Below, piece by piece: positions 36,635 to 50,252 of a stretch of 50,252 nucleotides of DNA. Made by a program: the position numbers and the translations under genes. Where the stretch lies: positions 1 through 50,252 of the forward strand of contig JACUUX010000017.1 of NCBI GenBank assembly GCA_014859105.1, read 5' to 3'. The notes below the pieces were generated by a model that searched no databases, was not told the origin of the DNA, and saw only the letters and a list, made by a program, of their open reading frames with translations. Each line of letters starts with the position of its first letter. Position 1 is the first letter of the stretch. The stretch is from Nitrospirota bacterium. GTDB lineage: Bacteria; Nitrospirota; Thermodesulfovibrionia; Thermodesulfovibrionales; SM23-35.

Positions 36635-36697
36635 ATGATAGAATTTAATGAAAGAGAATATCAGACGGTGATACTGGCAGCATTGTTGCATGAATGA
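36635..36697 (+). pseudogene. Scrap of a cas10 N-terminus
   Basis: A 20-codon frame, MIEFNEREYQTVILAALLHE, sits directly upstream of the real cas10 and has its own GGGAG site. The EYQTVILAALLH part is what many Cas10/Csm1 proteins begin with just before the HD motif (LLHDIGKF), but here it ends with Glu and a stop. It looks like the first residues of another cas10 whose remainder is gone. The stop overlaps the intact gene's alternative start. Confidence 0.55.
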
Positions 36698-36708
36698 AAG
36701 GGGGCTAC

Positions 36709-39339
36709 ATGTTAGATGAAACAATTTATAAAGTTGCCATAGCAGCTTTTATGCATGATATAGGAAAATTTGCTAAGAGGGCCGGTTTTAATGTAAGCCC
36801 GGAGTTCTTAAATAATAATGCTGACCTTTATCAGCCCTATATTAAAGAGCAAAACAGACATACACATAAACATGTTGTTTATACTGCAGCTTTCATTGAT
36901 CATATTGAAAAGTTATTACCTAAACAATTTAACAAAGGTGAATGGGGACTTGGGGATTCATTTATGAATCTTGCCGCTGGACACCATAAGCCCCAAACAC
37001 CTATGCAATGGTTGATTGCTTTAGCTGACAGGGTTAGCAGCGGCTTCGACCGGAATGAATTTGAGAACTATAATCATGAGATTGGGGTTAAGGATTTTAA
37101 AAAGACAAGACTTTTCGCCATTTTTGAGAGTCTGTCACCTGATGAAGTGCCGAAAGGCGATAATTCTGAAGAATATTTTTTCAGGTATCCACTCAGGGAG
37201 CTATCCCCTGAAAGTATTTTTCCCGTTAAACGTGATGATTATCAACTACTCGACAGTAATGAACAAACTAAGGAATATAGCGATCTTTTCTTTAATTTTG
37301 TTGTTTCATTGGAAAAACTGTCACATAAAAATAATATCCCCCTATGGTTTGAACATTTTGACAGTCTCTTTATGATATATGCTTCATACATCCCTTCTGC
37401 AACAGTCGGCAGAATTATACCTGACTCATCTCTTTACGACCATTCAAAGATGACGGCAGCTCTCGCATCTGCATTGTATTTATATCATTCCGGAACGGAC
37501 ACCTTGAATACCGAAAAGATAAAGGCTTATCAGGACAAAAAATTCCTGATAGTGAATGGTAATTTCTATGGTATTCAGAACTTTATATTTTCAGAAGGCG
37601 GAAGCACAGGAAAAGCGGCAGCAAAGCTTTTAAGGGGCAGATCCTTTGCTGTCTCGCTTTTGAGCGAACTTGCTGCTGATATGCTTTGCAGAGAATTAGG
37701 TCTGACTCCTGCTTCGGTTATCTTGAATGCAGCAGGCAAATTTACCATTATTGCCCCTAACCTTCAGGAAACAAAAGATAAAATACTTGCAGTTGAAAAA
37801 GAAATCAATGACTGGCTCATTAGAATGTATCATGGGGAAGCATCTTTCGGCTTTTCATCAAACGAGGCATCCTGCGATGATTTCACGATAAACAGATTTG
37901 ATGAATTGTGGGAAAACCTTTCAAGAATATCAGAAAGAAGAAAATATAGAAAAATAGACATTGGAAAACATGGCGGAGCAGTAGCAGATTATCTGGATCA
38001 GTTCAATAATGATATGAATAAGAAATTATGTCCCTTCTGCGGCAGGAGACCATCAAGTCCGGATGCAGAGAATGATAGGCTTCTTGGCGATGAAAAGTCG
38101 GCATGCAACATCTGCCGCGACCATATTTACATTGGAACAAATCTTGTAAAAGCAAGAAGGCTGGCTGTTACCACACTAAGTGCAGATATTCACGGTGATA
38201 AGCTCAAGGAACCGATATTCGGATCATATCAGGTTTCTCTGGATATTTCCGGCAAATTGACCGAACTCTCCAGAGACGGAACACTTCTAAAATACTGGGA
38301 TATATCCGGCTCAGTGAATGGCACGATCTCAAAAGAGGTAACGGCAAAATTTATTAATGGCTATGTGCCTAAATATACTGATAAAGATGAAACCGAAGAT
38401 ATGTTGGAGAGGCTGTTACATGGAAGCAAATCAGAGAAAAAGAAAAATGAGTTATTTGATGACATTAAGGATGGTAATCCCAAAACATTACATCATATTG
38501 CGAAGATGGCGCTGAACAGAATTCAAAATTCAGAACTTGAAACAAAGCGAAAATATACAGGAATTGAGGCATTGGGAGTAATGAAGTCTGATATTGACAA
38601 CCTTGGCTTATTATTCGCATGCGGTATAAAACAAAATAATCTATCGAAAATGGCTACTTTAAGCAGGCAAACGAATCACTATTTTTCAATCTATCTTCCA
38701 TATGTTTTAAGCATAAAAGAGGAATTCAGGGATATTTATACCGTATTTGCGGGTGGAGACGACCTTTTCCTTATAGGGCCATGGAACCGAATTATTGATT
38801 TTGCATCAGACATAAACCAATCTTTCAGGGAATATGTGTGTGACAACAGCCATGTTTCCATCTCAACAGGGATATGCATAAACAAACCTGACGAACCTGT
38901 TCGTACAGTTTCAGAGAAAGCTGAATATGCTGTAAAAAAATCGAAGGCAAACCGGCGGGATTCGATTACCATTTTCGATGAGGCGATAAAGTGGAAAGAA
39001 TTCGGGGAACTGCGGGGCATAAAATCTGTTATTGAATCATGGTTATCAAAGAGCTATATAAATAATGCCATGCTTTTCAGAATGAATCATTTTTTAAATA
39101 TGGCAAAACAGGAAAAAGCACTTCTGGCAGGAAAAAGAGCAATTGATTTTGATGAGATGGAGTGCCTCAAATGGAAGTCAATGTTCAAATATAATTTGGC
39201 AAGAAATATCGGTAAGGGTTTAAAGGGAGATGAAAAAGAAAAGGCCATTAGAGAAGTTGAAAAAGCTGCCGATTGGCTGATCAACTATGGTGGGGCAATG
39301 AAAATACCGATATGGCAAATAATTTATAACCAAAGATAG
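36709..39339 (+). CDS. cas10: Cas10 (Csm1), type III-A large subunit
   Basis: Cas10 is the signalling and DNase subunit of the Csm complex. I choose the ATG at 36709 (876 residues), which follows AAGGGGG; the upstream ATG at 36694 is less likely. The N-terminal HD nuclease motif is H16-D17 (FMHDIGKF), with AGHHKP later. A zinc-finger region (CPFCGRRP then CNICRDH) lies near the middle. The second palm domain has an intact FAGGDDLF motif at 680-687 (GGDD at 682-685), so cyclic oligoadenylate synthesis is expected. Both activities look intact. It begins the cas10-csm2-csm3-csm4-csm5 operon. Confidence 0.95.
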   Translation: MLDETIYKVAIAAFMHDIGKFAKRAGFNVSPEFLNNNADLYQPYIKEQNRHTHKHVVYTAAFIDHIEKLLPKQFNKGEWGLGDSFMNLAAGHHKPQTPMQWLIALADRVSSGFDRNEFENYNHEIGVKDFKKTRLFAIFESLSPDEVPKGDNSEEYFFRYPLRELSPESIFPVKRDDYQLLDSNEQTKEYSDLFFNFVVSLEKLSHKNNIPLWFEHFDSLFMIYASYIPSATVGRIIPDSSLYDHSKMTAALASALYLYHSGTDTLNTEKIKAYQDKKFLIVNGNFYGIQNFIFSEGGSTGKAAAKLLRGRSFAVSLLSELAADMLCRELGLTPASVILNAAGKFTIIAPNLQETKDKILAVEKEINDWLIRMYHGEASFGFSSNEASCDDFTINRFDELWENLSRISERRKYRKIDIGKHGGAVADYLDQFNNDMNKKLCPFCGRRPSSPDAENDRLLGDEKSACNICRDHIYIGTNLVKARRLAVTTLSADIHGDKLKEPIFGSYQVSLDISGKLTELSRDGTLLKYWDISGSVNGTISKEVTAKFINGYVPKYTDKDETEDMLERLLHGSKSEKKKNELFDDIKDGNPKTLHHIAKMALNRIQNSELETKRKYTGIEALGVMKSDIDNLGLLFACGIKQNNLSKMATLSRQTNHYFSIYLPYVLSIKEEFRDIYTVFAGGDDLFLIGPWNRIIDFASDINQSFREYVCDNSHVSISTGICINKPDEPVRTVSEKAEYAVKKSKANRRDSITIFDEAIKWKEFGELRGIKSVIESWLSKSYINNAMLFRMNHFLNMAKQEKALLAGKRAIDFDEMECLKWKSMFKYNLARNIGKGLKGDEKEKAIREVEKAADWLINYGGAMKIPIWQIIYNQR

Positions 39340-39348
39340 GAGGGCCAT

Positions 39349-39774
39349 ATGAATGTAAACTTTTGGAAAGATAAGACCAAAAAAATCATCGAACCCGAAT
39401 TGTTTTCATCGAAGGCAGATGATTTGGCGAAAGAAGTATATCGGGGGCAACAGCAGAGCAGGGGCAAAGCTAATAAACCTACGCAAATAAGAAAATTCTA
39501 CGATGAGGTGACACGGTTCGGGAGTATCCTTAAAACGAACCCTGATGAGTTTGAAAACGTACTGCCCTACTTGAAAATGCTGAATGCCAAAGCTGCTTAT
39601 GCTATGGGGAGAGATCTTATATCAAAAGAATTCAAAGACTTTATTTCAAACTCTCTCGATCAGATTAAGGATAGAGATGATTTTGAGGCCTTCTCGGGTT
39701 ATTTTGAAGCTTTTATGGGATATTACAAATTTTATGATGAAAAAGGTGGGACTTTGCAAGGAGGTGCCAGATGA
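39349..39774 (+). CDS. csm2: Csm2, small subunit of the type III-A complex
   Basis: A 141-residue, mostly helical protein with the Csm2 pattern QSRGKANKPTQIRKFYDEVT followed by LPYLKMLNAKAAYAMGR. In the complex several Csm2 copies form the inner filament along the crRNA-target duplex. The start follows AGGAGG, and the end overlaps csm3 by 4 bases (ATGA), so it is translationally coupled. Confidence 0.9.
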   Translation: MNVNFWKDKTKKIIEPELFSSKADDLAKEVYRGQQQSRGKANKPTQIRKFYDEVTRFGSILKTNPDEFENVLPYLKMLNAKAAYAMGRDLISKEFKDFISNSLDQIKDRDDFEAFSGYFEAFMGYYKFYDEKGGTLQGGAR

Positions 39775-40505
39775 AACTTACTGAAATTAAAAAAATTGAA
39801 GGAAAAATAACCCTGAAAAGTGGTCTGCATATAGGTTCTGGTAATATGGAAATGCATATCGGAGGCACAGATAGCCCGGTAATTAAACATCCACATACTT
39901 TAGAACCCTATATCCCCGGGTCTTCCCTTAAAGGAAAAGTTAGATCTCTTCTTGAAATGGAAAGTGGGCTAATCCCTTTTGCTTCTGAAGAGGGCGGTTT
40001 AGTGTCGTCGAAAACAATAAGGGATATCCTTGGTAACAATGGTATTTCTCCGGAATTGAAAACTCAATTAGTTAAAAAAGCAGAATCGATATTGAAAATA
40101 TTCGGAAGTAGCGGAGCGGACAGGGAAGACGAAACAGGCTATGGACCAACAAGGGTATCTTTTAGCGATTGTTATCTCAACGATAACTGGACAAAGAAAG
40201 CAAAAGATAATCGCTGGCTTCTAACCGAGGAAAAGTCAGAGAACGTTATCAATAGGATCAAGGGTACCGCTGAACATCCAAGGTTTATAGAGCGAGTGCC
40301 TGAAGGAACACAGTTTGATTTTCGTGTTACATTTAAAATATTACAGGATGGCGATGATCAACTTTTTGATACGCTCCTGAAAGGTCTCAAACTTCTGGAA
40401 CAGGACACACTCGGCGGCAGTGGCAGCAGGGGTTATGGAAGGATTTCTTTTCAATTCAACGATGAAGCAATAGATAGAATGTTTCAAACCTTAAATCCAT
40501 TTTAG
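39771..40505 (+). CDS. csm3: Csm3, backbone RAMP and target-RNA nuclease
   Basis: A 244-residue RAMP protein that lines the crRNA and cuts the target RNA every six nucleotides. The opening LKSGLHIGSG, then MHIGGTDSPVIKHP, places D34 at the position of the catalytic Asp33 of characterised Csm3 proteins, so target cleavage should work. PYIPGSSLKGKVRSLLE is the RAMP glycine-rich motif. The C-terminal GGSGSRGYGRI is another. Confidence 0.93.
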   Translation: MKLTEIKKIEGKITLKSGLHIGSGNMEMHIGGTDSPVIKHPHTLEPYIPGSSLKGKVRSLLEMESGLIPFASEEGGLVSSKTIRDILGNNGISPELKTQLVKKAESILKIFGSSGADREDETGYGPTRVSFSDCYLNDNWTKKAKDNRWLLTEEKSENVINRIKGTAEHPRFIERVPEGTQFDFRVTFKILQDGDDQLFDTLLKGLKLLEQDTLGGSGSRGYGRISFQFNDEAIDRMFQTLNPF

Positions 40506-40518
40506 CAGGAGGATTGCC

Positions 40519-41556
40519 TTGAAACTATATGAAATAACACTTAAACCTTTAAGTGGATTTGGCACTCTTTTGAAAGGAGATACCCTCTTTGGGCACTTTT
40601 GCTGGCAAATTGCTGGCGATGATAGACTATGCGGCTGGCCACTTGGAGAACTGATTGATAATTATCAAATAAAGCCATTCATCGTGTTTTCGTCTGCTTT
40701 TCCAAAGTTTTATATTGAAAAGATCTATCATTATGCCTTTAAAACTCCAGATATTCCACCTGATATGTTATTCGACCTTCCAAAAGAAAAACGTGAGCGC
40801 ATTAGAAAACGTAAAGAATATAAAAGTAAAAAGTGGATGATTATACAGGAGAATAGAAAGTTTAGATCTTTTAAAGAACTCGAATTCCTTTCCGATGAAG
40901 AGGTGATAGGCAAAGCAAATCGAACTGTCAGCAGAGAAACACAAAAGCGTTTGAGATATGCAGGATCAAAACAGTTTATCAGTATGTTTGATCAGCCTCA
41001 CAATACTATAAACAGAATTACTGGTACGACAGGGGAGGGCCGTTTTGCCCCGTTTATCGAAGAACAACAAGTATATTATCCGGAAACAGAACTCGCGCTG
41101 TTCGTGGGATTTGATGAATCTTTCATTAATATTAAACAGGTACTCTCAGGGCTTGAGAGAATTGGCGAATGCGGTTTCGGTAAGGACGCTTCATCAGGCT
41201 TGGGCAAGTTCATGTTAGTCAAGGAAACTGAAAAATATATAAAAGACATGGGATCTGATTCGCCAAATGTCTGCTATACGCTCTCACCCTGCGTGCCGGA
41301 AAAGGATACCTATTCAGATATATTTTTTATGCCATTTACAAGGTATGGAAAACACGGTGATGTCCTTGCAAAATCGGGCAACCCAATCAAGAAGCCGGTT
41401 ATCATGGCTGATGAGGGAGCAGTTTTAATACCGAAAAACAAAGAGGTTTTTGATAAACCATATATAGGACAAGCAGTTACGAATGTATCTAAAGCCGAAC
41501 CAAAGACTGTTGTGCAGGGATACTCCCTCTATATTCCTGTAAGCGTGGAGGCATAA
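40519..41556 (+). CDS. csm4: Csm4, 5'-handle-binding RAMP
   Basis: A 345-residue RAMP that caps the crRNA 5' handle and contacts Cas10. The opening LYEITLKPLSGFGTLLKGDT then LFGHFCWQI is typical of Csm4, and GFGKDASSGLGKF is the late glycine-rich loop. The only plausible start is a TTG at 40519, with AGGAGG at 40507-40512; no nearby ATG fits. It directly abuts csm5. Confidence 0.92.
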   Translation: MKLYEITLKPLSGFGTLLKGDTLFGHFCWQIAGDDRLCGWPLGELIDNYQIKPFIVFSSAFPKFYIEKIYHYAFKTPDIPPDMLFDLPKEKRERIRKRKEYKSKKWMIIQENRKFRSFKELEFLSDEEVIGKANRTVSRETQKRLRYAGSKQFISMFDQPHNTINRITGTTGEGRFAPFIEEQQVYYPETELALFVGFDESFINIKQVLSGLERIGECGFGKDASSGLGKFMLVKETEKYIKDMGSDSPNVCYTLSPCVPEKDTYSDIFFMPFTRYGKHGDVLAKSGNPIKKPVIMADEGAVLIPKNKEVFDKPYIGQAVTNVSKAEPKTVVQGYSLYIPVSVEA

Positions 41557-42699
41557 ATGGACAAACCACTAAAAATAAGACTTCATGTGTTGTCACCAAT
41601 TCATATAGGCTGTGATGATGTTTATGAGCCGACAAGTTTTGTAATAGATACTGACAAGAAAAAGCTGGTTTCTTTTGACCCGCTCGCATTTATTCGTACA
41701 TTAACGGATAGAGAAAGGCAGGAATTAACAGCGATCGCACAGAAAGGAACCCTTCCATCAATTATTGAAATATACCGTTTCATTTTTAATAAAAGGTCAT
41801 CAATCAAAGGGAATGAGATAAGTATCTCACAAGGCATAATTGACAGATATATCTCAGTAAAATCGTTAGCTCTGAATGATAGGAACATAAAACAGGAACT
41901 GAATAATTTTATTATTCCCAGAACTGCCTATCATCCATATAATAACACTCCGTATATTCCCGGCAGTTCTCTGAAAGGCTCGGTAAGAACCGGTTTTCTT
42001 AGTATGTTAGCGCTTGGAGGGGGCACATATAAAGGGCTTGACTATATCCTTGCAGGAAACAAACCGAATAATTCAATTACCAACCGGAGAAATGCACGGG
42101 AGCTTGAACTACAGTTACTAGAGGGGTCATTTGCTGAAGACCCTTTCAGGATGTTGAAAGTATCGGACTTACTGCCGCATACTAATGTTAGGACAAGAGT
42201 ACTTTATGCAATCAACAGGAGAAAACTTGATGGCAGCAAACAGACACGAGGAATTCCCCAGATATTTGAAATAATTGAAGCAGGGTCTTCTTTTGAAGGT
42301 GTAATTAACTTACAGTCCCCTCCTAGCAGTGCAGGAATAAAAAAGCCTATCGATTCGTTAGGTATAAGGGCGTTTTTCAGGGCGGTTCATAAGCACTATG
42401 CGCGTAACTATGGTGTTGAATCAAAGATAGCTGAACAATTGCACTTTAAGATGCCGAGGCCATTGAAATCACATGGTGATATGAAAGAAACAGCCTTTCT
42501 GATACGTGTGGGTAAACATTCAGGAGCTGAGTCAGTAACAATTGAGGGTAACAGACAAATATTAGTAAGAGGACCGAGAGGGAGTAAAGAAATTAAAGAT
42601 CATGCAACAACCATATGGCTTGCCTCAGAACAAGCAAAGCCAGAGAATAATAATGGTCTTTTCCCCTTCGGCTGGGCGGTGATGGAGGTTTTGAATTGA
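41557..42699 (+). CDS. csm5: Csm5, 3'-end RAMP of the type III-A complex
   Basis: A 380-residue RAMP that caps the 3' side of the complex and helps recruit crRNA-trimming nucleases. RLHVLSPIHIGCDDVYEPTS near the start and PYIPGSSLKGSVRTGFLSML near 130-150 are the RAMP signatures. The C-terminal end is PFGWAVMEVLN. It begins immediately after the csm4 stop. A second, orphan copy of this C-terminal end is found at 43329-43382. Confidence 0.93.
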   Translation: MDKPLKIRLHVLSPIHIGCDDVYEPTSFVIDTDKKKLVSFDPLAFIRTLTDRERQELTAIAQKGTLPSIIEIYRFIFNKRSSIKGNEISISQGIIDRYISVKSLALNDRNIKQELNNFIIPRTAYHPYNNTPYIPGSSLKGSVRTGFLSMLALGGGTYKGLDYILAGNKPNNSITNRRNARELELQLLEGSFAEDPFRMLKVSDLLPHTNVRTRVLYAINRRKLDGSKQTRGIPQIFEIIEAGSSFEGVINLQSPPSSAGIKKPIDSLGIRAFFRAVHKHYARNYGVESKIAEQLHFKMPRPLKSHGDMKETAFLIRVGKHSGAESVTIEGNRQILVRGPRGSKEIKDHATTIWLASEQAKPENNNGLFPFGWAVMEVLN

Positions 42700-42742
42700 A
42701 TATTAATAGTTTTTTTTCAATGATAAAAGAAACAGAAAGTTG

Positions 42743-43003
42743 CTAAGGTTTTTTCAGGACATAATCGTGTGGACCGATACGTCGGAGAAAATAATGGTTA
42801 CGATGTATCTCAAAGGTAAACCGATAAAACATATCTATGCTTGCTTGCCAGCGGTTTTTGTGCCCTTTCATCTTTTTAACTCTGAGGGAAGGGTGACGTA
42901 TGTCATTGATAAAGAGTCTTATCTTGTCATCAAATTTTTTCTGTGCAGTCTTAGGAAGCCTCTTATAATCCTCCTTAAAAGCATCAGTGCGGAGGATTTT
43001 CAT
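42743..43003 (-). CDS. RelE/YoeB-like toxin
   Basis: An 86-residue protein with the RelE/ParE superfamily layout: MKILRTDAFKEDYKRLPKTA, then LKKMKGHKNRWQASIDM-like basic stretch and YRFTFEIHRNHYFLRRIGPHD at the end. It probably cleaves ribosome-bound mRNA. It overlaps the antitoxin gene by 4 bases and runs against the csm operon, ending 43 bases past csm5. Confidence 0.8.
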   Translation of the reverse strand: MKILRTDAFKEDYKRLPKTAQKKFDDKIRLFINDIRHPSLRVKKMKGHKNRWQASIDMFYRFTFEIHRNHYFLRRIGPHDYVLKKP

Positions 43004-43254
43004 TTTTTAAGGTCTGAAAGAAAGTCTTCTATGGAGTCAAATGATCTGGTTTTTCCTGCTGCGATTTCTTTGTCAGCTTCAGCCTCAGCCTTTTCCCAGT
43101 TAAATTCTCTGAAATATGGTGGGAGAGACAATGCATATTTGATTAATTCAGCAACAGCCGCTTCTGTATTTGGTTTATTTGCGGATTTCCTGTATCGCTC
43201 TATTTCATCAAAGACATCATCTGGAATTTTTATTGTTAATTCACGTCTTGCCAT
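43000..43254 (-). CDS. Antitoxin of the RelE-like pair
   Basis: An 84-residue protein. The N-terminal MARRELTIKIPDDVFDEIER looks like a ribbon-helix-helix DNA-binding segment. The acidic tail (about 50-84) should bind the toxin. It is encoded upstream of the toxin with a 4-base overlap, the usual order. It should repress its own promoter. Confidence 0.78.
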   Translation of the reverse strand: MARRELTIKIPDDVFDEIERYRKSANKPNTEAAVAELIKYALSLPPYFREFNWEKAEAEADKEIAAGKTRSFDSIEDFLSDLKK

Positions 43255-43328
43255 CTTTTTGTTCCTTTTACGTCAAGATAACACACCCTTAGTTTTTAAG
43301 TCAATTTATAGCATAGATTCTTTAAAGC

Positions 43329-43382
43329 ATGATAAAAATTCATCTCCCTCTTGGCTGGACAGTGATGGAGGTTGTGGATTGA
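43329..43382 (+). pseudogene. Scrap of a csm5 C-terminus
   Basis: The frame MIKIHLPLGWTVMEVVD and its stop match the end of csm5 (FPFGWAVMEVLN) in both protein and DNA: CTGGACAGTGATGGAGGTT here against CTGGGCGGTGATGGAGGTT at the end of csm5. Nothing of a Csm5 body precedes it. It appears to be the last codons of another csm5 copy left between two toxin-antitoxin pairs. Confidence 0.6.
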
Positions 43383-43387
43383 AAAAA

Positions 43388-43777
43388 TTATCCCTTATAA
43401 ACCCTCACGCCCGGAATCTGCTCGAAGTGGGTGTCGAGGGTGAAGATAGAGAGGTTGTGTTCGATGACGAGGGCTGCGATGGCAATATCAGTTAAAGGAA
43501 GATTTATGCCTTTTCTCCTCAAGGACAGGGAGAGTTTGCCTGCTTCTATCCATAAATCTGTAGTTATTTCAAGCACATTTACCGCTGTTATCAATTCAGT
43601 AAGATATTGTTCTTCTTTGAAATATTTAAGACCCTGTAAAAGTTCGGCGATTATTATGCCTGTGGAATATACACAATTCTTGTCCAGGAGTCTTGCAATT
43701 TTTTCCCCATATTGTTCATTGCCTTTTAGAAATTCAATAAGAACTGAAGTGTCAACGAGAACTCCATCTTCTGTCAT
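43388..43777 (-). CDS. vapC: VapC-type PIN toxin
   Basis: A 129-residue PIN nuclease. Acidic residues are in place: LVDTSVLIEFLKG at the start, IIIAELLQGL, LPLTDIAIAALV and FTLDTHF. It should act as a tRNA or rRNA-cutting toxin. It overlaps vapB and faces away from the csm operon strand. Confidence 0.88.
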   Translation of the reverse strand: MTEDGVLVDTSVLIEFLKGNEQYGEKIARLLDKNCVYSTGIIIAELLQGLKYFKEEQYLTELITAVNVLEITTDLWIEAGKLSLSLRRKGINLPLTDIAIAALVIEHNLSIFTLDTHFEQIPGVRVYKG

Positions 43778-43988
43778 TTTCTTCCATCTCCTTTATCTCC
43801 AGATTTTCAAGTTCTTCAGTAACATCTTCAATCTTGATCTTCCCTCTCAAGGCAAGAAGTTTCTTAATCTTCTTCTGCCGGACATATTCCTTCATGGCAA
43901 TGGTAATCGCCTTTGTCTTGGACTTTTCGCCGGTAATCTTCTGCACCTCAGAAAGGAGATCATCAGGTATGTTTAAAGTTGCACGCAT
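43752..43988 (-). CDS. vapB: VapB-type antitoxin
   Basis: Started at the ATG at 43988, supported by AAAGGAGG eight bases upstream, it has 78 residues beginning MRATLNIPDDLLSEVQKITG, a ribbon-helix-helix antitoxin start of the VapB type. The GTG nine bases earlier is inside the ribosome site. The C-terminal charged helix would bind VapC. It overlaps vapC by 26 bases. Confidence 0.85.
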   Translation of the reverse strand: MRATLNIPDDLLSEVQKITGEKSKTKAITIAMKEYVRQKKIKKLLALRGKIKIEDVTEELENLEIKEMEENDRRWSSR

Positions 43989-44044
43989 AATATGCACCTC
44001 CTTTATATGCCTTTATTGTATGCAAATGTTTCGAATAATACAAG

Positions 44045-44180
44045 CGGCTAACCCCTCCCAACCTCCCCTTAACCTAAGGGTAGGAGAATTCTTTGCCCTT
44101 AAGGTACGGGGAGTTATCCTTCATGGAGATGGAAGTAGGATATCTTTCCCCTCTTGGAGTAAGAGGGGGGAGGGGGAGTT
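44045..44180. repeat. C-run/G-run inverted repeat upstream of card1
   Basis: AACCCCTCCCAACCTCCCCT on the left is mirrored by AAGAGGGGGGAGGGGGAGTT on the right, with a GGTAGGAG/CTTTGCCCTT core. It is the same type as 22020-22100. It fills the gap of about 230 bases between vapB and the card1 start region. Confidence 0.6.
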
Positions 44181-44216
44181 ATAAAGAGTTATAAATAAGG
44201 TGCTAAGGAGAAAACA

Positions 44217-44267
44217 ATGAGCCATATTCATGTATGCCTTGTGGCAGCTTTTAGGAGAACATTATGA
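44217..44267 (+). pseudogene. Scrap of a Card1/Can2-like N-terminus
   Basis: A 16-codon frame, MSHIHVCLVAAFRRTL, has its own AAGGAG site and ends in a TGA that overlaps the card1 ATG. The MSHIHVCLV part resembles the first strand of DUF1887-type CARF nucleases, of which card1 itself (MKKILVSLVSEQTVPN) is one. It may be the start of a former or second copy, or a small leader peptide coupled to card1. Confidence 0.45.
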
Positions 44268-45415
44268 AAAAAATCCTTGTCTCTCTTGTCAGTGAACAGA
44301 CTGTTCCTAATGTTATTGTGACTGAGCATTTTAAGCCAGATATTTACTGGTTCATAAGTACAAAGCGAATGGAAAATGAAGGCAAAACAGGCTGTATCGA
44401 AAATACGCTAAGACTGATGAAGCACGAACTAACAGAGAAAAATGTGCGGACACTGATTGTCAATCAGGATTCATTGGTAGACTGCATTGAAAAGATGGAA
44501 GATATGACAAATTCTGTAGATGAAGAAGCAGGTTATGTAGTGAATCTCACAGGTGGGAATAAAATAATGGCAATTGCAGCCCTTGAGGTTTTTAGAGACA
44601 TTGGCCAAAAAGTAATCATTGGATATATGCCTCTTGGCAAAAATGAGTTTATTCAAATTTATCCAAAGAAGAGACCACTGAAGACTTATGAAATCCCGGA
44701 GCGGTTGGCCTTAGAAGAGTACTTATCCTGCTATGGCTTTGAAATAAAAAACAAAAAGAAATTATCTTCAGTTGTATCTGCCTCGCTATCAAGAGAGACC
44801 CTTACAGAATGGATAATGAATAATTTTAAGGAGCTAAAAGGATTGCTAGGATTTTTATATAAAAACACAGGTAACAAAAGAAAAGAAGCTCAGGTTGAAA
44901 TGTCAGATAAATTTAATAGGGAACCATCAAGAGTTGAAAAGGAATTTTTAGAGAAATTTGATTTTAAACTTAAAAATAGAGTAGTTGAGAAGAAGCTAAA
45001 GAAAGATGAGATTATTTACCTGACAGGTGGCTGGTTTGAGGAATACGTATTTAATGAAGTTTATAAAATGACGCAGGAGAAGTTTGTCAACGATGTAAAG
45101 ATGGGAATACAGATTAGCAGCGCTTCAGGTGCTGATAATGAATTGGATATAGCTTTTATGAAAGATAACACCTTTTACCACATAGAGTGTAAAACTCTCG
45201 GAGAGGAGGAAGAACAGTCCATCATCGGCGATGAAGTTTATAAAAAAGGGGCTATCCTACCATTGCTTGGTAAAGGTGGCAAGGCATTTATATGTACAAC
45301 ACATACCTCGATTAAACCGAGTCTTTCAAACAGGGCACGAGATTACAACATAGAAATTTTTAATCTTGCACAAATAAGGAATTTGCCAAAAGAATTATCT
45401 GAGAGGATAAGATGA
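44264..45415 (+). CDS. card1: Card1/Can2-type cyclic-oligoadenylate-activated nuclease
   Basis: The 383-residue product follows the Card1/Can2 (DUF1887) plan: a CARF domain (about 1-140; ILVSLVSEQTVPN, VVNLTGGNKIMAIAAL), a linker, and a PD-(D/E)xK nuclease domain (about 240-383; YLTGGWFEEYVFNEV, NELDIAFMKD and HIECKT). Characterised members bind cA4 and then nick DNA and/or cut RNA. The nuclease residues are present, so an active effector is expected. It has its own AGGAG site, and its end overlaps the next small gene by 4 bases. Confidence 0.9.
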   Translation: MKKILVSLVSEQTVPNVIVTEHFKPDIYWFISTKRMENEGKTGCIENTLRLMKHELTEKNVRTLIVNQDSLVDCIEKMEDMTNSVDEEAGYVVNLTGGNKIMAIAALEVFRDIGQKVIIGYMPLGKNEFIQIYPKKRPLKTYEIPERLALEEYLSCYGFEIKNKKKLSSVVSASLSRETLTEWIMNNFKELKGLLGFLYKNTGNKRKEAQVEMSDKFNREPSRVEKEFLEKFDFKLKNRVVEKKLKKDEIIYLTGGWFEEYVFNEVYKMTQEKFVNDVKMGIQISSASGADNELDIAFMKDNTFYHIECKTLGEEEEQSIIGDEVYKKGAILPLLGKGGKAFICTTHTSIKPSLSNRARDYNIEIFNLAQIRNLPKELSERIR

Positions 45416-45633
45416 AGAAATCACTCAATCCTGCCGAAGTCCAAGAACGCCTCAAGGCGTGGGCGGACATTACGATGCTGTCTCTTGAGTTGAAAAAGGC
45501 TTTTCTCAGAAAAAGATATCCAGAACTTACTGAAACAGAAATCAGTGAATTGATACGGAAAGAACATGAAATAGCTGAGGGGTTCAGGATACATCATGAT
45601 GGTATGGAATTAAGCGGAAAGGAGCGGCGATAA
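45412..45633 (+). CDS. Small helical protein of unknown function, coupled to card1
   Basis: A 73-residue protein overlapping card1 by 4 bases (ATGA), beginning MKKSLNPAEVQERLKAW then ITMLSLELKKAFLRKRYPEL and ISELIRKEHEIAEG. It is rich in Lys, Glu and Leu, predicted helical, with no Cys clusters, signal or membrane segment. I do not recognise it. The tight coupling between a Card1 nuclease and a Csx3-like gene suggests a role with one of them, for example as a regulator, but nothing in the sequence shows which. Confidence 0.65.
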   Translation: MKKSLNPAEVQERLKAWADITMLSLELKKAFLRKRYPELTETEISELIRKEHEIAEGFRIHHDGMELSGKERR

Positions 45634-45635
45634 AG

Positions 45636-45881
45636 TTGGAAAACGTTACCATTGATCTCTCAACTTTTTACACATCAAATGCTAAACTTTATGACCTTGA
45701 TTCTTACATCCAGAAAGCCCAATCCATTGCAGGTGAAGGAAATGATATTGTTCTTACCGGTCAGGCTCCTGTCTGGCTTTATCTGAAAATCGCCCATGCA
45801 TTACATGGAAAGGCAAGAAAATTGATCTACAAAAGTCCGGTGACAGGGGACATAGTTATTTTTGATCATTCACCAGATTGA
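45636..45881 (+). CDS. csx3: Csx3-like putative cyclic-oligoadenylate ring nuclease
   Basis: An 81-residue protein. The stretch IVLTGQAPVWLYLKIAHALH followed by YKSPVTGDIVIFDHSPD resembles the Csx3 (Crn3) fold, where SGRGPIWL-type and late beta strands with His/Asp residues form the cA4-cleaving site. It is shorter than the archaeal protein (about 110 residues). The start is a TTG at 45636 with GGAG about 10 bases upstream. It follows the 73-residue gene by two bases, so card1, the unknown and csx3 form one translational unit: an effector and its off-switch. The assignment is from recognition only. Confidence 0.65.
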   Translation: MENVTIDLSTFYTSNAKLYDLDSYIQKAQSIAGEGNDIVLTGQAPVWLYLKIAHALHGKARKLIYKSPVTGDIVIFDHSPD

Positions 45882-45896
45882 TTTTATAGAGACATT

Positions 45897-45914
45897 TCTA
45901 TATTATAATATAGA
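45897..45914. promoter_or_regulatory. 18-bp perfect palindrome upstream of vapB2, likely operator
   Basis: TCTATATTATAATATAGA is a perfect palindrome that also contains a TATAAT -10-like hexamer. It lies 22 bases before the antitoxin start, where autoregulating VapB proteins bind. Confidence 0.6.
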
Positions 45915-45936
45915 CAATAATATAGGGAGGATAGAT

Positions 45937-46197
45937 ATGGGTAACTCAACAAAACAGGCAAACTTTCTTCTACCTGAAGATTTGCTTGATGAACTTAAGA
46001 TGACAGTCTCCAGAAGACAACAGAGTAAAGTTGTAGCGGATGCGTTGAGGAAGGAACTTAAACGATTAAAATTGGAAAAAGTTCTTCAGACAAGCTTCGG
46101 AGCATGGAAGGATAAGCACCATCCTGAATTAAAAGAAGGCACTGAGGCATTTGTCAGAAAATTAAGAAAATCAACAAGATCGAGCCGCTCTAAATGA
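45937..46197 (+). CDS. vapB: VapB-like antitoxin (plus-strand pair)
   Basis: Started at the ATG at 45937 after GGGAGG, the product has 86 residues: an N-terminal ribbon-helix-helix-type stretch (QANFLLPEDLLDELKMTVSR then QQSKVVADALRKELKRL) and a basic C-terminal tail. An in-frame start at 45862 lies inside the Csx3-like gene and is unlikely. It overlaps vapC by 4 bases. A palindromic operator candidate lies upstream. Confidence 0.83.
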   Translation: MGNSTKQANFLLPEDLLDELKMTVSRRQQSKVVADALRKELKRLKLEKVLQTSFGAWKDKHHPELKEGTEAFVRKLRKSTRSSRSK

Positions 46198-46574
46198 AAA
46201 GTGTCCTTGTTGATACAGACATCCTTATAAACTTTTTGAGAGGCAGAGAAAAAGCCAAAGACTTCCTATTGTCACTTCTTGAAGAATCAACAATTTATTG
46301 TTCTGTAATATCGATTGCAGAGATACACGCCGGCATGAAAGAACATGAAAGGGAAAAGACAATTGAATTCATAGATAGTCTGAATATCGTTGATGTAACA
46401 CGCGATATTGCTGAAAAGGCCGGAAAATATAAGAGAGAAGAAAAAAAACGAATTCTTGAACTGGATGATTGTTTTGTTGCAGCGACTGCCTTTATCAAAG
46501 GAGCTATTCTTGCCACGGGAAATGGAAAACATTATCCAATGGTAGATATAAAAAAAGAAATTTTTACCTTATAA
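46194..46574 (+). CDS. vapC: VapC-type PIN toxin (plus-strand pair)
   Basis: A 126-residue PIN nuclease with the full acidic set: LVDTDILINFLRG, SIAEIHAG, LDDCFVAATA, and a late TGNGKHYP loop. It is translated with the antitoxin just upstream. An AATATTG-TCG-CAATATT hairpin followed by TCTTTT (46605-46626) may end this transcript. Confidence 0.88.
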   Translation: MKSVLVDTDILINFLRGREKAKDFLLSLLEESTIYCSVISIAEIHAGMKEHEREKTIEFIDSLNIVDVTRDIAEKAGKYKREEKKRILELDDCFVAATAFIKGAILATGNGKHYPMVDIKKEIFTL

Positions 46575-46604
46575 TTTTTACCGCTCTTTGACAACTGAAT
46601 AAAA

Positions 46605-46626
46605 ATATTGTCGCAATATTTCTTTT
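46605..46626 (+). terminator. Possible terminator after vapBC
   Basis: AATATTG and CAATATT form a 7-bp stem with a TCG loop, followed by TCTTTT. A similar but weaker structure follows cas6 (34596-34616, AATATTGTCACAATGTT then GTTTTTC). Confidence 0.4.
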
Positions 46627-46691
46627 GCTGACAACTGCCTGCAATCCCGTTTATTCTGTATTCAGGATATGAATTCTAATGTTAAAAAACC

Positions 46692-46757
46692 GTCATTCCT
46701 GCGGAAGCAGGAATCCAGAGAAAAAGGGACTGGATTCCGCATCAAGTGCGGAATGAC
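46692..46757. repeat. Palindromic element immediately upstream of cas2
   Basis: Two hairpins: GTCATTCCTGCGGAAGCAGG then AATCCAG, and CTGGATTCCGCATCAAGTGC then GGAATGAC. It ends 17 bases before the cas2 start and leaves no clear ribosome site, so cas2 may depend on expression from this element's far side. Confidence 0.75.
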
Positions 46758-46774
46758 AAATTCGACAAAAGACT

Positions 46775-47056
46775 ATGGAGAGGACTCTTTATCTTATAGC
46801 TTATGACATCACAAACGACCGCAGGCTGAATCGTGTGCGCCACTTTCTCAAAGGGTACAGCACAGGTGGTCAGAAGTCTGTTTATGAGTGCTTCCTGACA
46901 GACGGAGAACTCAAATATGTTAAGAGGAAGTTGGAGAGATTAATAGACGAGGATGAAGATAGGGTTCATATCTTAACTATTGACGGTAGAAGCAGAACAC
47001 ATACACTCGGAGTTGCTGTTCAACCAAAGGATCCGGAATATTTCTACATAGGATAA
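46775..47056 (+). CDS. cas2: Cas2 (first copy)
   Basis: A 93-residue ferredoxin-fold protein that bridges Cas1 dimers in spacer integration. LYLIAYDITNDRRLNRVRHF is the typical Cas2 opening, with the conserved Asp in YDI. GGQKSVYECFLTDGEL follows in the usual place. A weak ribosome site precedes it. It is followed after 6 bases by cas1. Confidence 0.93.
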   Translation: MERTLYLIAYDITNDRRLNRVRHFLKGYSTGGQKSVYECFLTDGELKYVKRKLERLIDEDEDRVHILTIDGRSRTHTLGVAVQPKDPEYFYIG

Positions 47057-47062
47057 AGGAAT

Positions 47063-48022
47063 ATGGGAACACTTTATATTGACAGAAAAGACCTTCATAT
47101 CAAGCACGATGGCAATGCCCTCGCATTTTACTCAAATGAAAAAAGGGAGGGCATTGTTCCGATGAATCCTCTAAAAAGGGTAATCATGGTAGGGAATATT
47201 TCAATTGAGACTTCTGTCCTGCATAGGCTTTCTAATGAAGGTATAAGTGTCCTTTTTCTATCCGGGAAAAGGTTGAGGTTTTGCGGAATGATACATGGAA
47301 GACTACATAACAACGGCTTCTTGAGAGTCAAACAATATGAAAAGTCCCTATCTGATTTTTCTGTGAAGATAGCAAAGGATATTATAAAAAGGAAAGTAGA
47401 AGGACAAAGAGAGTTTCTTATGGATGTAATAGAGAGTAGACCTGATTTGCGTTTTCCAATGACAAATGCAGCAGGCGTTCTTGGAAAAATACTTAAAAAA
47501 ATGCTGAGTCAAGAACTTGAGATGGAAACCCTCAGAGGACTTGAAGGCGGCGCATCATCAAGATATTTTCAAGCATTTACCAAAATATTTCCTGAATCTC
47601 TCAAATTCAAGAAAAGAAATAGGCGGCCTCCTGAAGACCCGGTAAATGCCATGCTGTCGCTCTGCTATACCCTGCTTCATTATGAGTTAGTAAGGGAGAT
47701 AGAGGTTATCGGTCTTGATCCCACAATCGGTTTTTATCATCAGTTTGAGTATGGAAGGGAGTCTCTGGCATGTGACCTTGTTGAACTCTACAGGACAGAT
47801 GTTGACAGATTTGTGCGGGAACTTTTCAGGGATAGGACTTTTGCTGCGCGAGATTTTGCTCAAAAAGATGAGAGACCAGGCTGCTATCTCAAGAAAGGAA
47901 GCAGGGGAAGATTTTATCCCATTTACGAAGAATGGGCAAAAAGTATGAGGCCCCAATTTATAAGCGAGGTAAGAACCTTAGCCGTGAGGATAATGGATGG
48001 ACAGGACATTATACCTGAATGA
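47063..48022 (+). CDS. cas1: Cas1 integrase (catalytically intact)
   Basis: Cas1 is the integrase that inserts new spacers. The 319-residue product has an N-terminal beta domain (LYIDRKDLHIKHDGNALAFY) and the helical catalytic domain. The metal ligands are present: E161 in RGLEGGASSRYF, H226 in IGFYHQF and D238 in SLACDLVE. It overlaps cas1' by 26 bases at its 3' end. Confidence 0.95.
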   Translation: MGTLYIDRKDLHIKHDGNALAFYSNEKREGIVPMNPLKRVIMVGNISIETSVLHRLSNEGISVLFLSGKRLRFCGMIHGRLHNNGFLRVKQYEKSLSDFSVKIAKDIIKRKVEGQREFLMDVIESRPDLRFPMTNAAGVLGKILKKMLSQELEMETLRGLEGGASSRYFQAFTKIFPESLKFKKRNRRPPEDPVNAMLSLCYTLLHYELVREIEVIGLDPTIGFYHQFEYGRESLACDLVELYRTDVDRFVRELFRDRTFAARDFAQKDERPGCYLKKGSRGRFYPIYEEWAKSMRPQFISEVRTLAVRIMDGQDIIPE

Positions 48023-48827
48023 AAATAAGGGGTTGACAGTCTTCAGAGACGGTCCTTCCATATGGATTAAAGAAGAAGGGAGGGCTGGAAGAAGAATACC
48101 TGCAAGACTCATAGGCAGAGTTGTAATTATAGGAAACCTGCGATTCGAGGCTGGAGTTATTACGCTTTTTACAGATAATGATATCCCAGTTACTTTTATC
48201 AACCACAGAGGAGATGCTGCCGCCGTTGCTATGCCGTACAATCATCATTTACCAAGGCATTATGAAGAACAGAAGGTGTTCCTCGAGACAGAAGAAAATA
48301 CTGATAGATTCAAAAGGTGGGTTTATGCAAAGCGAAGAGAAGCTCAGATAAGGGTTGTGAATCGTCTCTCAAAAGGGGTTGCAAGGTCATTTGCATATAA
48401 AGGTTTCCGGGAAAAAGATTATCAGAAGTTCATCGAGGAGTTTAAGCCTGCTGGAGCAGTCAGGGGTGAATATTGGCGGGTTGCATCAGGAATAGCAAGT
48501 AATCTTTTTAGAGAGATGACGATTGCTTGTATTGTTAAGGCTGACCTTGACCCCCATCCTGGAATTATATACAGGAGACACAATTTTGGTTTTGCACTTG
48601 ATCTATGCCGTGCGCTCGAAGCAGAGATTGATCTTCAATGTATCCAGTTTTTGAAAAATGCAAGGGGAAAAGATTTTCTTGTAAATAGTTCTGCTGGATG
48701 GGTCATATCAAAAGAAGGCATGAGAGACATTATCCACAGGTATGAAAACAGGAGAAAGCAATTACACGAGATGGTAGAAAGGTTGATAGATGATATCTTC
48801 GAGCTGATGAGGGAATTAAGAAGATGA
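47997..48827 (+). CDS. Cas1-like paralog with altered active site (cas1')
   Basis: A 276-residue Cas1 homolog, shown by LYLNENKGLTVFRDGPSIWI, RIPARLIGRVVIIGN and the LDPHPG motif. At the catalytic Glu position the sequence reads PAGAVRGEYW, with Ala152 in place of Glu. At the His position it reads GIIY, with Tyr192 (a His lies three residues later at 195). The Asp position appears kept as D202 in FALDL. It is also about 40 residues shorter than the neighbour. It is probably not an active integrase by itself. It starts 26 bases inside cas1 and overlaps the second cas2 by 4 bases, so all four genes are co-translated. Confidence 0.85.
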   Translation: MDRTLYLNENKGLTVFRDGPSIWIKEEGRAGRRIPARLIGRVVIIGNLRFEAGVITLFTDNDIPVTFINHRGDAAAVAMPYNHHLPRHYEEQKVFLETEENTDRFKRWVYAKRREAQIRVVNRLSKGVARSFAYKGFREKDYQKFIEEFKPAGAVRGEYWRVASGIASNLFREMTIACIVKADLDPHPGIIYRRHNFGFALDLCRALEAEIDLQCIQFLKNARGKDFLVNSSAGWVISKEGMRDIIHRYENRRKQLHEMVERLIDDIFELMRELRR

Positions 48828-49102
48828 AGGCTAATTATCTCGTTTGCTACGACATAAGCGATCCTCGACGTCTGACAAGGGTTTTTAAACTCATGAAGGG
48901 TAATGGGATTCATCTTCAGTATTCCGTATTCCATTGTTCTTTCACATGGCCGAGGCTCTTAGAAGTTAAGGATAAATTAAGATTGATTATTGATAAAAGG
49001 AAGGATGATGTAAGAATTTATCCTCTGCCTTCAGAGGAGAAGGTAATTATAATGGGTTGTGGAGACAGGGTGCCGGACGGTGTTGATATTTTTATTGAAT
49101 AA
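48824..49102 (+). CDS. cas2: Cas2 (second copy, cas2')
   Basis: A 92-residue Cas2: NYLVCYDISDPRRLTRVFKL, then LQYSVFHCSFTWPRLLEVKD. The conserved Asp and the fold pattern are present. It differs clearly from the first copy, so it is not a recent duplicate. It overlaps cas1' by 4 bases and lies directly before the CRISPR leader. Confidence 0.93.
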   Translation: MKANYLVCYDISDPRRLTRVFKLMKGNGIHLQYSVFHCSFTWPRLLEVKDKLRLIIDKRKDDVRIYPLPSEEKVIIMGCGDRVPDGVDIFIE

Positions 49103-49262
49103 GACCTCTTCCCTGTGTCATTGCGCATCGAGTGCGGAATCCAGGTGTTTTCTATACTAATTCGAAAAAGAAGGTGGATTTAGGTTGCTTAATAAATTCG
49201 ATGAAAACTGCACAACCAATGACAGAAGATTCTGGATTTACACAAAATATTTAGGGGGTGCA
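49103..49262 (+). promoter_or_regulatory. CRISPR leader region containing a palindromic element
   Basis: The 160 bases between cas2' and the first repeat are where an array promoter and integration signals should be. They hold hairpin halves of the dispersed element: GTCATTGCGCATCGAGTGCG then GAATCCAG at 49117-49144, and CAATGACAGAAGATTCTGG at about 49217-49235. The last 30 bases before the first repeat are AT-rich (ACACAAAATATTTAGGGGGT). Confidence 0.55.
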
Positions 49263-50252
49263 GAAGAAACTAAGACCTGAATAAAAAGGGATTGCGACTC
49301 CACGCCGTTATACAGATTCCCTCTCTGCTCATTAGGAAGAAACTAAGACCTGAATAAAAAGGGATTGCGACACATCGCTTGCATCGAATATTTCATCGAT
49401 GAAAGCTGAAGAAACTAAGACCTGAATAAAAAGGGATTGCGACTAATTTAATTAATTCCTGTTCTGCCTCAATTATCGAAGAAACTAAGACCTGAATAAA
49501 AAGGGATTGCGACGTCAATTTTTCAGCACTGATAAGTTTTTTTAGACTGAAGAAACTAAGACCTGAATAAAAAGGGATTGCGACTTCTCCTTATCTTAAA
49601 AGGTTTATAATTTTTGACAAAGAAGAAACTAAGACCTGAATAAAAAGGGATTGCGACCCATAAAAAAAACAGTGAGCTTCTCGGCGGTGAGCAAGAAGAA
49701 ACTAAGACCTGAATAAAAAGGGATTGCGACCAAAAACCCCCTGTCCAGCTTTGATTGCGATGTTTGTGAAGAAACTAAGACCTGAATAAAAAGGGATTGC
49801 GACCCAGTCGGTCGGGAGACCGTCCCCGATTTTTATCCCGCGAAGAAACTAAGACCTGAATAAAAAGGGATTGCGACCGCTTTCATCTGAGAATTTTGAG
49901 AGCTGCACGGAAAAGAAGAAACTAAGACCTGAATAAAAAGGGATTGCGACACCAGAACTGTCAACAAAATAAGTTTCCATAAGAAGAAGAAACTAAGACC
50001 TGAATAAAAAGGGATTGCGACTTTTTCCAGCGGAATCATCGCTGGAAGGCAAGAGAAGAAACTAAGACCTGAATAAAAAGGGATTGCGACTCAAGGTGAC
50101 CAGGCTGATCTTTCTTCTGTAATTATGAAGAAACTAAGACCTGAATAAAAAGGGATTGCGACCTGATCTTTCTTCTGTAATTATTCCCCCATCGCTGGAA
50201 GAAACTAAGACCTGAATAAAAAGGGATTGCGACGATCGTCAGCAGAAACGGT
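49263..50252 (+). CRISPR. CRISPR array, 14 identical 36-bp repeats in window (runs off the end)
   Basis: The repeat is 36 bp, beginning GAAGAAACTAAGACC and ending AAAAAGGGATTGCGAC. Copies start at 49263, 49336, 49408, 49478, 49549, 49622, 49695, 49768, 49842, 49915, 49986, 50055, 50127 and 50198, all identical by eye. The 13 complete spacers are 33-38 bp; a fourteenth is cut at the window end. Reading rightward, the repeat's last eight bases, ATTGCGAC, resemble the ATTGAAAC-type 5' handles of type III crRNAs, which supports transcription on the plus strand from the leader at 49103-49262. Spacers 12 and 13 share 22 bases. Confidence 0.98.

Follow-up and report, generated by a model that had tools for sequence, protein, structure and literature searches.

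In the Cas1-Cas2 integrases of known structure, a Cas2 dimer lies between two Cas1 dimers; a 3' end is accepted by only one of the two subunits of each Cas1 dimer, the Cas2 dimer being placed next to the other (PMC6395717). In Escherichia coli, the 3' overhangs go into Cas1a and the Cas2 dimer adjoins Cas1b (PMC6395717). The Cas1-2/3 integrase, a C2-symmetric heterohexamer, has channel walls formed by inactive Cas1 subunits, and how a symmetric integrase sets the orientation of integration is a stated problem (PMC12259127). In the integrases of these papers, the different roles are played by identical Cas1 copies. A diverged second Cas1 has already been noticed: the PADLOC profile PDLC01185 carries the one-line label "Cas1, diverged variant, second in the loci", and the paralog described here is likewise a diverged second Cas1.

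The window, i.e. the whole stretch of 50,252 nucleotides that was analysed from a Nitrospirota contig, contains four intact, co-directional cas ORFs (46775-49102), with a type III-A csm/CARF locus on one side and the CRISPR array of that locus on the other (Table 1). The first-pass annotation had read them as a single unit with two Cas1 and two Cas2 proteins, which their matches to PF01867 and PF09827 confirmed; both Cas2 proteins score above the PF09827 cut-off and keep the Asp of the YDI motif. The description of the unit as fully overlapping did not hold, since cas2 and cas1 are separated by a 6-nt gap, and overlaps exist only between cas1 and cas1' (26 nt) and between cas1' and cas2' (4 nt, ATGA).

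Table 1 Features of the type III-A locus and its four-gene adaptation module (positions in the window)
Feature	Position	Strand	Description
csm1-csm5, type III-A	36694..42699	+	TIGR02578, TIGR01870, TIGR02582, TIGR01903, TIGR01899
Card1/Can2-like CARF nuclease	44264..45415	+	PF23400 and PF09002
Csx3-like protein	45636..45881	+	PF09620, 31.6 bits; frequent neighbour of the four-gene module
cas2	46775..47056	+	93 aa; family motif STGGQKSVYECFL; YDI Asp kept; PF09827, 69 bits; alignment
cas1, catalytic paralog	47063..48022	+	319 aa; PF01867, 252 bits, full length; AF2 pLDDT 85.5
Cas1 triad codons	E161 47543-47545, H226 47738-47740, D238 47774-47776	+	
cas1', putative non-catalytic paralog	47997..48827	+	276 aa; PF01867, 51.5 bits, N-terminal half; AF2 pLDDT 84.7
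Cas1' R138	48408..48410	+	pairs with catalytic Glu E161 of Cas1 (hhalign, including global mode)
Cas1' Y192	48570..48572	+	pairs with catalytic His H226 of Cas1 (hhalign)
Cas1' D202	48600..48602	+	pairs with catalytic Asp D238 of Cas1 (hhalign)
cas2'	48824..49102	+	92 aa; motifs HxQYSVFxC and DDVRIYPL; PF09827, 67 bits; alignment
CRISPR array	49263..50233	+	14 identical 36-nt repeats; spacers of 33-38 nt

The locus as a whole spans positions 36694-50252. Its effector part is an ordinary type III-A set comprising csm1-5 with Cas10/Csm1, and the HD and GGDD motifs of Csm1 could be read in its translation. Toxin-antitoxin-like genes occur within the locus, as two opposite-strand pairs (42743-43997), the second of them VapBC, and as a VapBC-like pair that runs in the direction of the cas genes (45862-46574). 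The array begins 160 nt past cas2' and extends to the end of the contig. It probably continues on contig C54 of the same genome (G000), since its repeat recurs there at positions 1-36. Two adjacent spacers (50091-50126 and 50163-50197) have 22 nt in common (CTGATCTTTCTTCTGTAATTAT) in the same orientation and hence probably originate from overlapping protospacers.

The predicted AF2 model of Cas1' displays a complete Cas1 fold. Its top match in Foldseek was Cas1 of Thermotoga maritima (TM1797, 4xtk; E 2.3e-11), with which VIA-align aligned 270 residues (Z 25.3, rmsd 3.1). Together with a PF01867 score of 51.5 bits against a cut-off of 22.3, this match places the protein within the Cas1 fold family. 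In Cas1, the Glu helix is followed by a loop (residues about 174-200) that contains the RRPPxDPVNAMLS motif; most of this loop has no counterpart in Cas1', whose chain is 43 aa shorter.

Cas1 retains the Glu-His-Asp metal site, as the first-pass annotation had proposed: codons and alignment agree on E161, H226 and D238, the three residues are invariant in two Cas1 alignments (A3 and A5), and no partner Cas1 that includes the segment has lost the triad. For Cas1', the earlier assignment of Y192 to the His position and D202 to the Asp position stood, whereas A152 as the Glu position was ruled out by the profile alignment, in which it lies outside the G136-F-R138-E motif. The segment G159-L-E161-G-G-A-S-S-R-Y-F of Cas1 was instead paired with G136-F-R138-E-(gap)-K-D-Y of Cas1', with a deletion of 3-4 residues after R138. 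Two profile alignments gave the pairing of R138 with E161, one of 21 versus 22 sequences and one of 60 versus 59 sequences in global mode; a local run of the larger alignment left the Glu segment unaligned. Replacement of the catalytic Glu by R138 is hence well supported but not certain. None of the profile alignments gave Cas1' both a His and an acidic residue at the active site, an arrangement that would have spoken against the original reading. With R138, Y192 and D202 at the three positions of the window protein, Cas1' is predicted to be unable to form a Cas1 active site.

Among 60 Cas1' sequences, the Glu column held Arg in 27, Gly in 15, Lys in 10 and Gln in 2, with a few single residues; Arg, Gly or Lys thus account for 52 of the 60, and the single Glu is alignment-ambiguous. 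The His column was more permissive (33 His, 13 Asn, 5 Tyr, 4 Asp, 3 Arg, 1 Gln, 1 Lys) and the Asp column was nearly uniform (55 Asp, 5 Glu). The search proposed in the first-pass annotation, for the same gene order with the same residue losses in other genomes, came out in its favour, with the Glu lost in essentially every member; the His is kept in 33 of the 60. The lesions common to the family are the loss of the Glu and of the segment, and the loss of the His is not family-wide.

Cas1' was found in approximately 63 genomes, a number counted by hand from searches of relatives, of the phylum, of public genome contigs and of the phylum of a Syntrophorhabdaceae genome (G404); many are Nitrospirota and some belong to the Syntrophorhabdaceae phylum. 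The public contigs were labelled Thermodesulfovibrionales, Nitrospirae, Syntrophorhabdaceae, Deltaproteobacteria, Deferribacteres and, in one case, Archaeoglobi. Since this last contig (Archaeoglobi archaeon JdFR-42, L102) was the sole carrier of the module among 100 genomes of that phylum, an archaeal spread was dismissed, and misbinning or a recent transfer possibly accounts for it. Cargo of mobile elements or viruses was likewise rejected as a reading of the module, with no match obtained in IMG/VR or plasmids.

In all loci where the four genes were found (53/53), they are arranged on one strand in the order cas2-cas1-cas1'-cas2'. The genes cas1 and cas1' overlap in 43 of these loci (mode -26 nt) and cas1' and cas2' in 39 (mode -4). 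Order and lesions thus recur in tens of genomes, beyond chance. Two divergent loci have an insert of 3.4-3.7 kb separating cas1 from cas1'; that of L140 (7001-10296) encodes two CARF proteins, one of them NE0113 and the other joined to an adenosine deaminase domain, which are type III ancillaries only and were rejected as a clue to the function of Cas1'. Natural Cas1-Cas1' or Cas1'-Cas2' fusions, which would have been proof of contact, were not seen at module loci, and the long ORFs in high-GC module loci are overlapping frames. The first cas2 is absent from four loci (L057, L061, L062 and L063), which retain cas1-cas1'-cas2'; no CRISPR array was detected near them, and hence they may be less active. 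An array lies at most 1.5 kb downstream of cas2' in 30 of the 54 loci examined, a number of the others being limited by contig ends.

The co-occurrence of Cas1' with one clade of Cas1 is exact. Within the order, a Cas1 of the module type (>400 bits) occurs in 34 genomes, every one of which has Cas1'; the next-best Cas1 (226 bits) belongs to a genome without it. Among the genomes of the phylum to which G404 belongs, the ten that carry Cas1' are exactly those with the ten top Cas1 matches (281-517 bits). No genome carrying the module Cas1 clade and lacking Cas1' was thus found in the order or in that phylum. The proteins also diverge together: pairwise-distance correlations among the four ranged between 0.82 and 0.91 (51-56 loci). 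In the 17 loci also containing csm genes, correlations were 0.89-0.96 within the quartet and 0.87 between Csm1 and Csm3, but only 0.35-0.47 between the quartet and Csm1 or Csm3. This pattern suggests that the quartet moves as a unit and is passed from one effector set to another. Obligate co-occurrence and co-divergence apply to Cas1 and Cas1', but not to the first cas2, given its absence from the four loci mentioned. Partial correlations were 0.55 for Cas1-Cas1', 0.38 for Cas2-Cas2' and 0.10 for Cas1'-Cas2', values that are only suggestive because longer proteins give less noisy distances and protein length is thus a confounder. They weakly favour a pairing of Cas1 with Cas1' and of Cas2 with Cas2' over one of Cas1' with Cas2'.

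In a phylogenetic tree, Cas1' and the module Cas1 were each monophyletic (SH-aLRT 100), and several subclades were mirrored between them (L063+L145; L140+L142+L144; L055+L057+L058; L078+L080; L079+L083+L085). Subject to the caveats of rooting and of long branches (L094 and L145), the monophyly and the matching subclades fit a single ancient duplication, after which Cas1 and Cas1' descended together. The dN/dS of Cas1' was 0.04-0.23 in 17 of 18 pairs, values like those of Cas1; the eighteenth value (0.41) is uninformative, as it comes from two nearly identical sequences (dS 0.06). About 60 of the 63 copies of cas1' are intact, those of G011, G576 and G076 being broken or truncated, so that a mostly broken gene, the other finding that would have contradicted the first-pass annotation, was not encountered. 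Its claim that Cas1' is not a product of simple decay was borne out by strong purifying selection, by recurrence and by the obligate co-occurrence with one Cas1 clade. A functional Cas1' is therefore supported.

The best explanation, to which we attach about even confidence, is that Cas1' is the obligate non-catalytic subunit of a hetero-integrase. The four genes would encode one CRISPR adaptation machine, each component of which comes in two unlike halves. Cas1 would be the sole subunit with an integrase active site and Cas1' a dedicated non-catalytic Cas1, which would pair with Cas1 and occupy the position of the non-catalytic monomer of ordinary Cas1 homodimers. There it would line the prespacer/repeat channel and contact Cas2, and Cas1 would take the 3' ends and perform the transesterification. 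Cas2 and Cas2' would together build an asymmetric central bridge, which might favour one orientation when spacers are integrated into the neighbouring type III array. We infer the heteromeric pairing, the placement of the subunits and any role in orientation; a split of the two Cas1 roles between genes in this lineage would be the simplest reading. The basic charge of Cas1' and the change from Glu to Arg or Lys would suit a site that holds DNA without cutting it, and the existence of two Cas2 families, each with its own conserved motifs, suggests an asymmetric bridge. In the loci without the first cas2, Cas1 has no cas2 but cas2' beside it, which was counted in favour of a shared complex. It is possible, though rather doubtful, that the complex is a true heteromer (Cas1-Cas1', Cas2-Cas2') whose own asymmetry sets the polarity of integration, with no need for Cas4, for a trimming exonuclease or for PAM-driven asymmetry.

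Some features sit less easily with a hetero-integrase. By itself, a non-catalytic Cas1 subunit needs no second Cas2, and the mirrored order cas2-cas1/cas1'-cas2' would also suit two separate Cas1-Cas2 pairs. Likewise, a simply dead site leaves unexplained why the His is kept in about half and the Asp in nearly all of the Cas1' proteins. The main rival explanation, which we consider rather unlikely, is that Cas1'-Cas2' is a separate, non-integrating accessory in the manner of Cas4 or Csn2, used for the capture, measurement or protection of prespacers or for handing them over to Cas1-Cas2. The mirrored order, the presence of an own Cas2 next to Cas1' and the ATGA overlap of the two genes would all agree with such an accessory, as would the charge of Cas1', the most basic of the four proteins (median pI 9.6, net charge +9), and its faster divergence (mean distance 0.66 versus 0.48 for Cas1). 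No cas4 happened to be noticed at the module loci, which would also fit. Nevertheless, partial co-divergence is lowest for precisely this pair and highest for Cas1-Cas1', a weak argument, and in the four loci without the first cas2 an accessory Cas1'-Cas2' would leave Cas1 lacking any Cas2 in its locus.

Catalytically dead paralogs are often dominant-negative partners, and Cas1' could be a negative regulator that poisons Cas1 oligomers and so restrains type III spacer acquisition, at a dose fixed by the translational coupling that the gene junctions would provide. We regard this as improbable, since a dispensable brake would be expected to be lost occasionally, yet no genome with the module Cas1 was found lacking Cas1', and since Cas1' has its own Cas2. 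An equally small probability is given to a Cas1' that keeps or has regained a metal-dependent activity by means of a rearranged site, with E139 beside R138 joining the His and the Asp where these are present. Position 139 is indeed Glu in 38 of 60 sequences, and 33 of the 60 have kept the catalytic His; however, the alignment pairs R138 and not E139 with the Glu, the His was lost on many branches and Cas1' lacks most of the loop behind the Glu helix. As position 139 is Pro, Gly, Thr or Arg in the divergent branches (L055-L062 and L140-L144), E139 was rejected as a substitute catalytic Glu. It is very improbable that cas1' is a duplicate in decay which has persisted only by chance: its high divergence, its lost active site and the three defective copies would fit, but this is contradicted by a dN/dS as low as that of Cas1, the single old origin, the large majority of intact copies and the exact co-occurrence with Cas1.

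The long-term togetherness of the unlike pairs suggests that the crippled Cas1 copy is a working structural part rather than a broken gene. With the roles on separate genes, a hetero-integrase of this kind would be a natural separation-of-function system, in which the catalytic or the structural subunit can be mutated alone. If the complex is asymmetric, the choice of spacer orientation in type III systems becomes directly testable. A built-in answer to the orientation of spacers by an otherwise symmetric integrase would, if true, be useful to type III systems, which need transcript-complementary spacers.

A widespread, old and constrained module is thus covered by a short profile label in a defence database. 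In 297 genomes, PDLC01185 matched solely Cas1' proteins of this module, and the position stated in its label agrees with the diverged Cas1 being encoded after the active cas1. No other PADLOC profile scores higher with the divergent members L145 (59.8 bits), L063 and L142, but PDLC01185 misses most of the Cas1' members found here, and with the Cas1' of the window the profile gave a weak 37 bits over the N-terminal half only, below the generic Cas1 profiles. In the literature searched, no paper was found on a non-catalytic Cas1 paralog, on the module, its lesions, the obligate pairing or its function; papers from which the PADLOC label may stem possibly lie outside that literature.

Among the known systems, the type III-A Csm loci with Card1 and Csx3 have the same effector part as the locus in the window; the adaptation module described here differs in being common to diverse type III loci, without co-divergence with their effectors. 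RT-Cas1 modules also serve as adaptation modules of type III systems. One is encoded in the same genome on contig C115 (L001, 406-3051), where an RT-Cas1 fusion is followed by two cas2 genes; this copy shares the doubled cas2, but its single Cas1 is fused to a reverse transcriptase and it has no inactive Cas1 paralog. The canonical type I-E integrase of E. coli, composed of four Cas1 and two Cas2, is built from the same folds and already contains catalytic and non-catalytic Cas1 positions (PMC6395717, PMC12259127). In E. coli, however, one gene provides for both Cas1 roles and one for both Cas2 positions, whereas in the module described here there would be two genes for each.
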